Shown piece after piece: positions 1,781 to 6,934 of a stretch of DNA of 10,853 nucleotides (its first letter is position 1; each line of letters begins with the position of its first letter). A model generated the notes under the pieces. That model saw only the letters and a program-made list of their open reading frames with translations. It had not been told where the DNA came from and searched no databases. Source of the DNA: Deltaproteobacteria bacterium (GTDB taxonomy: Bacteria; Desulfobacterota; Desulfobacteria; C00003060); the NCBI GenBank assembly GCA_030667105.1, contig DAOUWN010000043.1, positions 1 to 10,853 on the forward strand. The letters run 5' to 3'. The translations under genes were made by a program, and so were the position numbers.

Positions 1781-1809
1781 TTGACAGGAGCCGGGAATCT
1801 TTGTATGCA
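1781..1809 (+). promoter_or_regulatory. Candidate sigma70 promoter of the liv leader
   Basis: A consensus -35 TTGACA (1781-1786) is followed after 17 nt by TATGCA (1804-1809), which matches only the TAT of the -10 consensus. Transcription would start near 1816, about 25 nt before the leader-peptide ATG at 1841, a distance typical of attenuator leaders. The -10 box is weak and its location is inferred. If a promoter further upstream were used instead, the leader peptide could start at the ATG at 1805. Confidence 0.4.
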
Positions 1810-1840
1810 TTCTAAAAGCTTTGCAGAAAGATTTTTCCCC

Positions 1841-1909
1841 ATGCCGAGAGTGTACTGGGCCGACTATTACTATTACGCCAGCGTTGCTGTCGGCCCATGT
1901 CTTGGTTGA
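1841..1909 (+). CDS. Tyr-rich leader peptide of the attenuator
   Basis: A 22-residue peptide begins MPRVYWAD, continues YYYYASVAVG and ends PCLG before TGA (1907-1909). Five of its first twelve residues are Tyr and one is Trp. The four consecutive Tyr codons (TAT TAC TAT TAC, 1865-1876) lie immediately after the first arm of a hairpin (1856-1864) and before its second arm (1889-1897). Peptides of this composition and position are the sensing part of ribosome-mediated attenuators. The same frame is open back to ATG at 1805, giving 34 residues and adding a Phe-Phe pair; AGGAG at 1786-1790 could serve that start but is 14 nt away. The ribosome-binding site for the 1841 start is weak (AGAAAGA about 8-10 nt upstream). 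The peptide probably has no role after synthesis. Confidence 0.6.
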   Translation: MPRVYWADYYYYASVAVGPCLG

Positions 1910-1967
1910 GCTTGCACGTTTGGAAAGACAATCAGAAGCCGTGAGCCGAAAGGCTTGCGGCTTTTTT
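1856..1967 (+). promoter_or_regulatory. Ribosome-mediated transcription attenuator (four-strand leader)
   Basis: Four RNA segments can pair in exclusive ways. Strand 1 (TGGGCCGAC, 1856-1864) pairs perfectly with strand 2 (GTCGGCCCA, 1889-1897) around the Tyr codons. An extended strand 2 (1890-1903) pairs with strand 3 (1936-1949) at 12 of 14 positions: 1890-1894 with 1945-1949, 1896-1899 with 1940-1943 (one G-U), and 1901-1903 with 1936-1938. Strand 3 otherwise pairs with strand 4 (1952-1963) as the terminator. A ribosome stalled on the Tyr run would cover strand 1 and favour the 2:3 antiterminator. A ribosome reaching the stop at 1907 would cover strand 2 and favour termination. The pairings are seen in the sequence and the mechanism is inferred by analogy with trp/phe attenuators. 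It would control the livKHM genes that start at 2059. Confidence 0.65.
1936..1967 (+). terminator. Intrinsic terminator in the liv leader
   Basis: AAGCCGTGAGCC (1936-1947) and GGCTTGCGGCTT (1952-1963) form a 12-bp stem with two G-U pairs around a GAAA loop. Six T residues (1962-1967) end the stem and follow it. It lies 95 nt before the start of the substrate-binding protein gene and 26 nt after the leader-peptide stop, where an attenuator's terminator would be placed. Confidence 0.85.
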
Positions 1968-2058
1968 CGTATGAAAGGAGGTGAAGGGGCGATATAGGGA
2001 GTTTTTGTCACTGGCGCTTAAATATCTGCAAAACAGAATTTGATTGGAGGAGACTGCT

Positions 2059-3240
2059 ATGGATAAGAGAAAGAATAGCTTGGTGATTGTGCTCTGGGTT
2101 GGCATTTTTATGTTTTTGTCCGCGGCCTTGACGCTTTCCTGTGCCAAGAAGGCCGAGGTAAAGGAGCCATACAAGATTGGGGCGATCTTTTCTGTGACAG
2201 GCCGGGCCTCATTTTTGGGTGAACCGGAAAAAAAGACGGCCGAGATGATTGCCGAGCGGATAAATGCGGCCGGCGGCATTAACGGCCACCCGCTTGAATT
2301 GATCGTATATGACGATGAAGGTGACGCCACCAAGTGCAATGTGGCGATGAAGAAACTTATCAATCAGGACAACGTAGCTGTGGTCATCGGCCCGTCAACC
2401 AGCGGCACATCCCTGGCTATTGTGAGTGTTGCGGAAAGCGCCAAGATACCCATGATCTCGTGCGCTGCCAGCAAGAAAATTGTCATGCCCGTGGAAAAGC
2501 GCCACTGGGTATTCAAGGTGGCCGGCTCGGATATTCACGTTTCACAACGGATTCTTGCCCACATGAAGGGCAAGGGGATTACCAAGGTGGCCATCATGAC
2601 AGGTACCACCGGATTCGGGGCAAGCGGACGAGAAGAACTCCTTGCCTTTGCACCCCAATTTGACATTAGTATTGTGGCAGATGAGCGATATGGCCCCAAG
2701 GACACGGACCTGACAGCGCAGTTGACCAAGATAAGGGGAACAGGTGCCCAGGCTATCGTGAACTGGTCTATCGGCCCCACGCAGGTCTTGGCCGTGAAGA
2801 ACTGGCGGGCCCTTGGCATGGACAATCTGCCTTTCTATCAGAGCCACGGCTTTGGAAGCCACAAAAACATTGAGCTGTGTGGCAAGGACGCGGAAGGCGT
2901 GCTCTGTCCCCTGGCACGGGTCAATATCGGACGTCTTCTTCCTGACAGCCATGTCCAGAAAGAGGTCGTCATGAAATACACGGATGCCTATGAGAAAAAA
3001 TACAAGGAACCCATATCTTCCTTTGGCGGACATGCCTGGGACTCCATAAACGTTGCTGTCAAGGCATTGGAGACAGTAGGTCCGGATCGTGCTAAGATCC
3101 GCGATTTTATTGAGCAGTTGACCGGCTTTGTGGGGCAGCACGGTGTATTCAATTTCTCGGCCACCGACCACAATGGCCTGTCCAAAGATGACCTGGAGAT
3201 GGTGGTTGTCAAAAACGGAGACTGGGCATTGGCCGATTAG
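2059..3240 (+). CDS. livK: ABC transporter substrate-binding lipoprotein, LivK type
   Basis: The 393-residue product captures an amino acid outside the inner membrane and delivers it to LivH/LivM-type permeases. Residues 8-27 form a hydrophobic signal ending LTLS before Cys28, a probable lipidation site. The rest is a type I periplasmic-binding fold: YKIGAIFSVTGRASFLG (38-54), then AERINAAGGINGHPLEL followed by YDDEGD in lobe 1, then IGPSTSGTSLA and PMISCAAS, which in this family contact the ligand's amino acid head group. Length is usual for the family. ATG at 2059 is chosen over an upstream in-frame TTG (2044) because GGAGGAGA ends about 5 nt before it and it starts the basic signal region (MDKRK). 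It stands first in a livK-livH-livM set behind a Tyr-type attenuator, so tyrosine or another aromatic amino acid is the inferred ligand; sequence family alone would say branched-chain amino acids or another hydrophobic substrate. Confidence 0.9.
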   Translation: MDKRKNSLVIVLWVGIFMFLSAALTLSCAKKAEVKEPYKIGAIFSVTGRASFLGEPEKKTAEMIAERINAAGGINGHPLELIVYDDEGDATKCNVAMKKLINQDNVAVVIGPSTSGTSLAIVSVAESAKIPMISCAASKKIVMPVEKRHWVFKVAGSDIHVSQRILAHMKGKGITKVAIMTGTTGFGASGREELLAFAPQFDISIVADERYGPKDTDLTAQLTKIRGTGAQAIVNWSIGPTQVLAVKNWRALGMDNLPFYQSHGFGSHKNIELCGKDAEGVLCPLARVNIGRLLPDSHVQKEVVMKYTDAYEKKYKEPISSFGGHAWDSINVAVKALETVGPDRAKIRDFIEQLTGFVGQHGVFNFSATDHNGLSKDDLEMVVVKNGDWALAD

Positions 3241-3247
3241 TCGTATT

Positions 3248-4150
3248 ATGGAAGGAATCTCTTTTTCAAGCCAGCTTATTCAGTACGCGATAACCGGTGT
3301 CACCGTCGGGAGCATCTACGCCCTGGTTGCCATTGGCTTTAACATCATTTACAATGTTACCACAATCATCAACTTCGCGCAGGGGGAGTTTGTAATGCTC
3401 GGTGGGCTTTTTATGGTTTTTTTTGCCACCGTCGTGCAGATCCCCCTTCCGCTGGCCTTTTTTCTTACTCTCACCGTGGTGATTGCCATTGGGGTCATGA
3501 TGGAGCGGTTTGCCATCTTTCCTGCAAAGAACGCTTCGGTGCTCACCATGATCATAATAACCATTGCCTGCTCCATACTTCTGAAGGGGGCGGCCATGTA
3601 CGGATGGGGCAAGGACCCCTTCATGCTAGCTCCGTTTTCTGATCGAAAGGCCTTTGTTTTCATGGGGGCCGCGGTTTTTCCACAGTCCCTATGGGTCCTG
3701 GGAACGACCCTTATCGTTGTTTTTCTCCTGACGTTTTTTTACAAGCGCACAAGGTTTGGCAGGGCAATGATCGCAAGCTCCGACAACCCGGATGCTGCTC
3801 AACTCATGGGGATTGACGTAAAGACTATGGTCATGGTCTCTTTTGGTTTAAGCGCGGCTGTGGGCGCTGTGGCAGGCATCGTGATTACGCCCATATCCTT
3901 AATGGAATATGACCGCGGGGCGCTTCTGGGCCTCAAAGGCTTTGGCGCCGCTGTCTTGGGAGGATTGGGTCATTTCTACGGAGCAGTGGTTGCCGGATTC
4001 ATGGTGGGGCTCATGGAGTCGTTTTGTGCAGGGCTCATATCGTCGGGTTATAAAGACGCGGCAGCGTTGTTGGTCTTGCTCTTTGTATTGTTTCTAAGGC
4101 CAAACGGTCTTTTTGGAAGCAAGGAAGTAATGAAGATGAAGGAATTCTGA
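3248..4150 (+). CDS. livH: ABC transporter permease, LivH type
   Basis: This 300-residue integral membrane protein is one of the two permeases of a hydrophobic amino acid (HAAT family) importer. It has about eight hydrophobic segments. Near the N-terminus is GVTVGSIYALVAIGFNIIYN followed by the family signature INFAQGEFVMLGG (41-53). Near the C-terminus is GLKGFGAAVLGGLGHFYGAV, the LivH region that couples to the ATPase. Length is close to E. coli LivH (308). The ATG at 3248 lies 7 nt after the livK stop without a good Shine-Dalgarno sequence, so translation probably depends on coupling. The frame is open upstream inside livK, but that part lacks permease-like sequence. Next comes livM, after 8 nt. 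Confidence 0.9.
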   Translation: MEGISFSSQLIQYAITGVTVGSIYALVAIGFNIIYNVTTIINFAQGEFVMLGGLFMVFFATVVQIPLPLAFFLTLTVVIAIGVMMERFAIFPAKNASVLTMIIITIACSILLKGAAMYGWGKDPFMLAPFSDRKAFVFMGAAVFPQSLWVLGTTLIVVFLLTFFYKRTRFGRAMIASSDNPDAAQLMGIDVKTMVMVSFGLSAAVGAVAGIVITPISLMEYDRGALLGLKGFGAAVLGGLGHFYGAVVAGFMVGLMESFCAGLISSGYKDAAALLVLLFVLFLRPNGLFGSKEVMKMKEF

Positions 4151-4158
4151 CAACCGAT

Positions 4159-5106
4159 ATGACCACCACTGCTGGCAAGAAAGACATTCGTGTTTTGATA
4201 TGGCTTGTGGCCGGCATTGCGATTTTCCCGGTCCTGGTATTGAACGTCCCGAGTTTTAGACATTATGTTGACATCATGGTTTTTGTGGGGATATTTTCCC
4301 TGGTCAATATTGGCCTTAGTCTTGTAATGGGCTATACTGGGCAGGTGTCCCTGGGCCAGGCCGCGTTTTTTGGGCTGGGGGCCTATGTTTCAGGTATATT
4401 GACTACAAAATTTGGATGGTCGCCGTGGGCTGCCATACCTGTCGGAGTGGTCCTGACAGGTATGGTGGCTTTTGTGGTGGGGGTTCCATCTCTGAAACTC
4501 AAGGGTCACTATCTGGCCATGGCCACCCTTGGCTTTGGAGTCATTCTTTATGTTGTGTTCAACGAAGAAGTTGCCTTGACAGGAGGCCCTTCAGGGCTTG
4601 CCGATATTCCGGGCATTGCGATTGGTCCATGGGAAATAGACACGTCGCTCAAATATTACTATTTGGTGTGGGCCTTTGTTTTTGCTGTTCTTCTTTTTTC
4701 AATCAACGTCATACATTCCAGGGTGGGCAGAGCCCTTCGCTCTATCCACGGCAGTGAGATAGCAGCCAATGCCATGGGGGTACCCACGTCATCCTACAAG
4801 ACACGGATCTTTGTGCTAAGCGCAGTTTATGCCTCTTTGGGAGGCGCCCTTTATACGCATTACATGACGTTTCTTAGCCCCAGTTCTTTTGACCTCTTCT
4901 GGTCGATTAAATTCCTCATGATGGTTGTCGTAGGGGGCATGTCAAGCATCTGGGGCGCGCTTCTGGGCACCTGCCTCCTGACATATCTCTCCAATGAATG
5001 GCTCCACATGTTTCACGATTTTGATGTCCTGATCTATGGCCTTGTGCTCCTTTTGATTATTATGTTTCTGCCAAAGGGACTTGTGAGCCTGGCTAGGAAA
5101 GGCTAG
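4159..5106 (+). CDS. livM: ABC transporter permease, LivM type
   Basis: This 315-residue polytopic membrane protein is the second permease of the importer. Typical LivM blocks are visible: GYTGQVSLGQAAFFGLGAY (58-76), LKGHYLAMATLGFG (114-127), TGGPSGL (141-147), then SRVGRALRSIHGSEIAANAMG, which corresponds to the cytoplasmic coupling loop, and VVGGMSSIWGALLGT near the end. The C-terminus is FLPKGLVSLARKG. The 3' end carries a perfect 10-bp tandem duplication (5091-5110), and the stop codon is formed in its second copy. No LivG/LivF ATPase gene follows: the next gene is convergent and starts within 50 bp. The ATPases must be encoded elsewhere, or the operon is truncated. Confidence 0.92.
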   Translation: MTTTAGKKDIRVLIWLVAGIAIFPVLVLNVPSFRHYVDIMVFVGIFSLVNIGLSLVMGYTGQVSLGQAAFFGLGAYVSGILTTKFGWSPWAAIPVGVVLTGMVAFVVGVPSLKLKGHYLAMATLGFGVILYVVFNEEVALTGGPSGLADIPGIAIGPWEIDTSLKYYYLVWAFVFAVLLFSINVIHSRVGRALRSIHGSEIAANAMGVPTSSYKTRIFVLSAVYASLGGALYTHYMTFLSPSSFDLFWSIKFLMMVVVGGMSSIWGALLGTCLLTYLSNEWLHMFHDFDVLIYGLVLLLIIMFLPKGLVSLARKG

Positions 5107-6865: not shown

Positions 6866-6904
6866 AAATGCCTAAAGTGAGCTAAAATGCCTAAAGTGCC
6901 TAAA
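6866..6904. repeat. AAATGCC direct repeat, copy 2
   Basis: AAATGCCTAAAGTG occurs at 6866-6879 and again at 6885-6898 (19-bp period), followed by CCTAAATG. The words match the left arm of the element at 1583-1610. The element ends 6 bp before the cysteine desulfurase ATG, in the place where a ribosome-binding site would be. Confidence 0.6.
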
Positions 6905-6934
6905 TGTAGACGACGGGGGAGAAGCACAGATGTA

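Follow-up and report, generated by a model that had tools for sequence, protein, structure and literature searches.

A putative tyrosine-codon attenuator upstream of a Liv-type importer operon, with tandem-terminator relatives in Desulfobacterota

Classical trp and phe attenuators are built from four RNA strands and a leader peptide that carries a run of codons for the regulated amino acid. Strands 1 and 2 form a hairpin, strands 2 and 3 the antiterminator, and strands 3 and 4 an intrinsic terminator. We know of no tyrosine version of this switch. T-box elements bind uncharged tRNA directly and do not use a leader peptide. In pseudomonads, a conserved RNA, the livK RNA motif, is found upstream of livK; to our knowledge it has not been described as a leader-peptide attenuator. 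Predicted leader peptides in Actinobacteria include Trp, Leu, Cys and Ilv types (PMC1262725), and Tyr T-boxes precede NhaC-type transporters in Firmicutes (PMC2494555). The original prediction for the locus studied here, a tyrosine-sensing attenuator ahead of a HAAT-family importer, was put forward as one not known to have been described. Searches of the open-licence literature likewise yielded neither a Tyr-codon attenuator nor any attenuator before a Liv-type importer, a provisional result.

The window is the whole stretch of DNA that was analysed, 10,853 nucleotides from a Deltaproteobacteria bacterium. Its leader region and importer genes comprise the following features.

1781..1809, plus strand: promoter-like site, TTGACA at 1781-1786, a 17-nt spacer and TATGCA at 1804-1809 (consensus match only, 6/6 and 3/6)
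1841..1909, plus strand: leader peptide ORF of 22 codons, MPRVYWADYYYYASVAVGPCLG, from ATG 1841 to the stop codon TGA at 1907-1909
1856..1864, plus strand: leader hairpin strand 1, forming a perfect 9-bp helix with 1889-1897
1865..1876, plus strand: four consecutive Tyr codons, TAT TAC TAT TAC (putative regulatory codons)
1889..1903, plus strand: strand 2, pairing through 1889-1897 with strand 1 or through 1890-1903 with the terminator left arm
1934..1967, plus strand: intrinsic terminator (strands 3 and 4), stem 1934-1947/1952-1965, GAAA loop, U-run 1962-1967
2059..3240, plus strand: livK-type periplasmic binding protein (Peripla_BP_6)
3248..4150, plus strand: livH-type permease (BPD_transp_2)
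4159..5106, plus strand: livM-type permease (BPD_transp_2)

The layout that had been claimed can be observed at 1841-1967: a short ORF whose four consecutive Tyr codons are flanked by the arms of a perfect 9-bp hairpin, followed by a terminator. Strand 2 can instead pair, through 1890-1903, with the terminator left arm (1936-1949) at 12/14 positions, as predicted. The GAAA-loop terminator has a stem of 14 bp, or the claimed 12 bp without the two outer pairs, which draw on the U-run. Its stem begins 24-26 nt 3' of the stop codon, and 91 nt separate the end of the U-run from the livK ATG at 2059. The terminator lies between the leader ORF and livK. The ribosome-binding site of the leader ORF is weak (AGAAAG, 4/6, 10 nt 5' of the ATG). 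Every part of an attenuator is present as claimed. The version in the window is weaker than the original prediction assumed: its 2:3 pairing is imperfect, and it contains one strong terminator only, the second, tandem terminator of its relatives being absent.

The upstream neighbours are two likely genes, 488-1000 and 997-1554, both on the minus strand, and the terminator should therefore belong to a transcript starting somewhere from about 1555 to 1934. The TTGACA-17-TATGCA site at 1781-1809 is a candidate promoter. A second in-frame ATG at 1805 would lengthen the ORF to 34 codons, but with TTGACA at 1781 as the -35 box, this ATG would precede the point where transcription is expected to begin. 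Further upstream, about 150 nt with AGGCA-type repeats (1587-1733) are absent from the equivalent place in the nearest genome, G001; the repeat text resembles that near 6880-6905 of the window. The stretch 1700-1753 has copies with 80-89% identity elsewhere in G001, and five further genomes of the genus also contain it. One of its minus-strand frames reads KVNIHAEDVALICALEAGRALI, perhaps the tail of a decayed gene.

The evidence from the single sequence is mixed: the Tyr run exceeds chance, while the pairings do not. A YYYY run is found once across the six reading frames of the window, compared with 0.01 per shuffle (100 shuffles), and the 14 codons that precede strand 2 include five for Tyr (p 0.002 against shuffles). 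The leader fold has a z-score of -2.89 against dinucleotide shuffles, 2/200 of which are as good. The 12/14 alternative pairing is not better than chance (P 0.10), nor is the 9-bp hairpin when compared with shuffled ORFs, G-U pairs allowed (P 0.21), nor the energy of the duplex that the strand-2 region can form with the terminator arm (P 0.14).

G001, the only near relative compared, has 24% of sampled 31-mers in common with the window. Its LivK, LivH and LivM are 95%, 97% and 99% identical to those of the window, and the leader is 89% identical. The promoter block (1775-1815) and the terminator (1934-1968) show no differences (0/41 and 0/35 positions), the Tyr codons (1865-1876) differ at 3/12 positions, and the interval from the terminator to livK differs at 23/90, gaps included. 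The leader ORF has 8/69 differences; its frame is preserved, and five of the seven altered codons are non-synonymous. The sequence Tyr-His-Cys-Tyr (YHCY) stands in place of YYYY. Orthologues that keep the terminator and lose the Tyr codons had been named as evidence against the original prediction, and this closest orthologue, with its identical terminator and YHCY, goes part of the way; yet three Tyr in eight codons remain (YRADYHCY, p 0.0105). The 1:2 helix keeps 8/9 pairs, one of them as G-U, and there is one strong terminator, like in the window. No other evidence speaks as strongly as YHCY and the non-synonymous changes against conservation of a tyrosine sensor in the window lineage. Plain DNA similarity searches matched the leader in G001 only among 60 relatives, five other genomes matching just the repeat at about 1700-1753, and in 1/22 within the genus.

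More distant relatives were approached by scanning the upstream regions of 72 livK genes (42 + 30 loci) and of the window for terminators and Tyr-containing short ORFs. The upstream regions of 70/72 genes were fully usable, the exceptions being L070, where the contig begins almost directly before the gene, and the partial L024. A layout of this kind is found upstream of 21/72 livK relatives, with peptides such as IGYYYYGYLRRSAL, AYYYYYYDRGESVR and LYYYYYYTYFGRSAPVPL, each ending at a stop codon, that begin about 200-360 nt 5' of livK. A scan that ignores Tyr and requires nothing but a terminator whose left arm has a complementary stretch further upstream flagged 13/21 of these leaders, along with some non-leader pairs. 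The other eight (L049, L052, L054, L055, L062, L066, L074, L084) were added by inspection and motif search, the latter missing L062 and L074, and the pair counts below therefore lean towards the proposed structure.

A perfect TTGACA is located 107-147 nt 5' of strand 2 in 19/21 leaders (108 nt in the window; 0.048 expected per 140 nt). At least three Tyr codons precede strand 2 in 20/21 relatives, whose LivK identity is 61-71%. Upstream of strand 2, the best frames of the 21 leaders contain 97 Tyr codons in total; 2000 shuffles averaged 47.7 and never exceeded 58. Individually, 16/21 leaders lie beyond their own shuffles at p<0.05, the exceptions being L051, L059, L065, L083 and L084; L065 is richer in Phe (5) than in Tyr (3), and L083 has a single Tyr. 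Divergent relatives repeat the pattern of Tyr codons in a single frame and a stop codon shortly 3' of strand 2. At L065, two livK genes are arranged in tandem with an attenuator before each (1379-1508 and 2857-2977), and the first peptide ends in MKNYYYYYYV.

Strand 2 is typically GCGGTCTGCCC and pairs with strand 3, typically GGGCAGACCGC, which is the left arm of the first terminator. The right arm of this terminator (CCACGGCTT) can pair with the left arm (AAGCCGTGG) of a second terminator-like hairpin. The alignment of the 21 leaders bears out the pairings expected ahead of livK relatives: the 2:3 helix is 96.5% paired, with double changes in 3/11 pairs, and the 3:4 helix is 96.1% paired. 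The read-through fold (2:3 + 4:5) is paired in 95.5% of 420 cells, with double changes in 5/20 pairs (11 cells), and the termination fold (3:4 + 5:6) in 95.5% of 378 cells; slid versions reach 36-43% and 33-52%, respectively. None of 500 shuffles reaches the observed covariation score, the number of paired cells or the number of cells with double changes. The count of pairs with double changes is within the shuffle range, being reached by 125/500 (read-through) and 35/500 (termination), and so is that of further pair types (107/500 and 143/500). It is possible that the 4:5 complementarity simply follows from the GCCGTGG/CCACGGC common to both terminators.

A covariance model built from the leaders, R1, matches in 188/395 genomes of the phylum at E<=0.001 (E-values are rough). 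Its ten best matches are just 5' of livK in the ten genomes with the closest LivK, G001 aside. Six of these ten genomes were already in the alignment, and the other four (L092, L095, L096, L098) have Tyr-rich leaders. Codons were counted at 70 inspected loci in a frame chosen by aromatic content, so that the numbers are valid only for Y versus F versus W.

TrpE leaders, 9 loci: 25 W of 135 codons
TrpB-like leaders, 3 loci: 14 W of 45 codons
DAHP synthase leaders, 15 loci: 43 Y, 43 F and 21 W of 225 codons
2-amino-3,7-dideoxy-D-threo-hept-6-ulosonate synthase leaders, 17 loci: 76 Y, 50 F and 11 W of 255 codons
Aminotransferase-type leaders (type read from sequence), 5 loci: 14 Y and 22 F of 75 codons
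livK2 leaders, 5 loci: 2 Y and 32 F of 75 codons
livK leaders, 12 loci: 47 Y, 16 F and 0 W of 180 codons
CaiB-type CoA transferase leader, 1 locus: 6 F of 15 codons
Acetolactate synthase leader, 1 locus: V/I/L-rich peptide
Loci without gene assignment, 2 loci

The leader codons track the downstream gene, with Trp for trpE and trpB-like genes, Phe for livK2, which is a second type of livK, and mostly Tyr for livK. The agreement between codon and function holds for the trpE and trpB-like genes found with R1. The livK2 gene (L099) has no NCBIfam match at 1e-15 and was named from its sequence. Since R1 finds Trp, Phe and Tyr leaders, it is a general leader-peptide attenuator model, within which the Tyr-livK leaders are one type. 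In G001 itself, trpE is preceded by a Trp leader (L119), and the paaK of the other liv operon by a Phe leader (MKQYGFFADFVKAFFGGFLFFFRKPAHGSS, L160). Searches of the window and nine related loci against 4227 Rfam families, T-box included, gave no match at the gathering score; one of the sub-threshold matches, to sot2652, overlaps a leader (L064 5158-5324, 24.5 bits versus 61).

Several other leaders were observed along the way. Phe-codon leaders with the same layout are found before the phenylacetate-CoA ligase-like gene of a liv operon at L072, L077, L085, L087, L160, L163 and L164. At L126 (1877-2022), a Phe-codon leader precedes a CaiB-type CoA transferase, a target that belongs neither to the synthesis nor to the transport of amino acids. 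A second model match at L119 of G001 (2142-2274) is divergent from the trpE leader and contains a short ORF ending FVFWRFFFAFRSVHLDV before a gene without assignment.

The window was not found at E<=1 in the 73-source R1 search. With filters off and 501 nt searched, it scores 7.7 bits (E 0.012), a marginal match in which the Tyr codons and the terminator are aligned; G001 scores 8.0 bits (E 0.0094). In a quick LivK tree of 84 rows, the two share a long branch (length 0.48). Among the larger well-supported sets that include the pair, the smallest contains 34 rows, 19 with a Tyr leader and four without a leader label. With a support of only 85, the pair is drawn beside 50 rows, of which five have Tyr leaders (L053, L056, L062, L074, L098) and 45 have no label. 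In our reading, the window leader may go back to a shared Tyr leader that was lost in other lineages. It is plausible that the window holds a real but eroded, one-terminator member of a tyrosine-sensing attenuator type that precedes Liv-type (HAAT) importers. The interpretation as a Tyr-codon attenuator was right in kind and is supported by the relatives, which make a stronger case for it than the window does.

In folding models in which the upstream part of the transcript is covered and the transcript ends before strand 4, 2:3 is fully formed in 21/21 relatives. When a ribosome sits on the Tyr codons and the transcript ends at 1951, the expected number of 2:3 base pairs is 12.6 for the window and 12.0 for G001, while a ribosome at the stop codon leaves 0 bp in both. 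Without a ribosome, the window is expected to form 8.8 bp of 1:2 and 0.84 of 2:3. For the full window transcript at equilibrium, the terminator forms in every state modelled, and the antiterminator appears only in the truncated, ribosome-stalled model. A domino switch by equilibrium folding is not supported in the relatives: a stalled ribosome gives 2:3 of at least 0.5 in just 8/21, the second terminator still reaches at least 0.76 in 18/21, and only L053 and L056 switch fully. The truncated-transcript model covers 2:3, which it supports.

A livG query matches neither the window nor 7 kb examined at the G001 locus, while a livG-like gene is present within the examined stretch of 17/21 aligned relatives; the ATPases for the window importer may come from another operon. 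By sequence, the solved structures nearest to LivK are 3sg0, 4dqd, 3ukj (with 4eyo and 4eyq), 3uk0 and 3tx6 (with 4f8j and 4fb4), a group that we take to be Rhodopseudomonas proteins whose ligands are aromatic acids, for example phenylpyruvate, hydroxyphenylpyruvate or p-coumarate. A paaK-like gene adjoins livK in 26/72 loci within the stretches examined (one at 41% identity), and in 0/21 of those with aligned Tyr leaders. One such gene scores 626.2 bits with TIGR02155, just under the cut-off of 646.3. According to one study, very few of 22 R. palustris COG0683 proteins responded to Leu, Ile, Val or short amides, and other compounds, including aromatic acids, were bound (PMC3223731). On these grounds, a 'branched-chain' label for this importer is doubtful. 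We infer that its substrate is tyrosine or a related aromatic compound.

Taken together, we think it likely that 1781-1967 is a leader-peptide transcription attenuator that ties livKHM expression to charged tRNA-Tyr. Transcription would start near 1815, and a ribosome would translate the 22-codon leader peptide. When tyrosine is plentiful, the ribosome would reach the stop codon over strand 2, allowing the terminator at 1934-1967 to form and to end transcription before livK. When Tyr-tRNA is scarce, it would stall on the four Tyr codons, covering strand 1 and freeing strand 2. The free strand 2 could then pair with the terminator left arm before the right arm is made, and the polymerase would read through.

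The main competing explanation is that an ancestral tandem-terminator Tyr attenuator has decayed in the window lineage, leaving a constitutive terminator and a leftover Tyr run. The missing second terminator, the imperfect 2:3 pairing, the loss of two of the four Tyr codons in G001 with five of seven changed codons non-synonymous, and an equilibrium model that never opens the terminator all fit such decay. We nevertheless regard it as unlikely. If the terminator before livK had no switch, the operon would be silent, yet between the window and G001 the identity is 95% for LivK, 97% for LivH and 99% for LivM. The promoter and the terminator are unchanged between the two, the window keeps YYYY and the 1:2 hairpin, and G001 keeps three Tyr in eight codons (p 0.0105).

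The self-contained promoter-terminator unit and the weak ribosome-binding site would also suit a separate small transcript (sRNA) of about 150 nt, in which the short ORF is untranslated. This is very improbable, given that one-frame Tyr codons with a stop soon after strand 2 recur in divergent relatives and that codon identity follows the downstream gene; nor did any Rfam match reach the gathering score. Control by another RNA sensor, such as a T-box or riboswitch, or by a protein-bound leader appears still more remote. T-boxes before amino-acid transporters are common in Firmicutes (PMC2494555), but none of the 4227 Rfam families reached the gathering score in the window or in nine related loci, and the leader codons track the downstream gene.

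Beyond this locus, the data raise a broader proposal, which we consider as likely as not: that Desulfobacterota and kin use one attenuator chassis with swapped leader codons (Trp, Phe, Tyr and mixtures), serving aromatic uptake besides biosynthesis. Its full form would be a six-strand domino that throws two tandem terminators together, with 2:3 + 4:5 for read-through and 3:4 + 5:6 for a double stop, and the window would be a one-terminator tyrosine derivative. A tyrosine attenuator of the importer would carry classical attenuation beyond the biosynthetic operons in which it is known, to tyrosine and to import, and the tandem-terminator form in the relatives would be a double-locked switch. The leader codons, by naming an amino acid, would provide a sequence-based handle on the cargo of the common, poorly assigned Liv-type (HAAT) importers. 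The leader type in the relatives suggests that the importer is made when tyrosine for protein synthesis runs short.

Among known systems, the livK RNA motif is alike in its position upstream of livK, but the window and nine related loci have no Rfam match at the gathering score. Tyr T-boxes before NhaC-family transporters likewise place a transporter under the control of tyrosine supply through tRNA-Tyr (PMC2494555), whereas the window and nine related loci lack a T-box match at the gathering score. In the same phylum, the Phe-codon leaders of paaK-liv operons and of livK2 are similar in RNA layout and in the kind of transporter; they differ in using Phe rather than Tyr codons and, in the paaK-liv kind, in having paaK (phenylacetate-CoA ligase) as the first gene. 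The trp and phe attenuators have the codon-run peptide, 1:2 hairpin, 3:4 terminator and, less clearly in the window, the 2:3 antiterminator in common with the present leader, and the same phylum contains Trp versions before trpE and trpB-like genes. In contrast to them, the leader described here carries Tyr codons and precedes an importer rather than a biosynthetic operon, and its relatives add a second terminator whose left arm is able to pair with strand 4.
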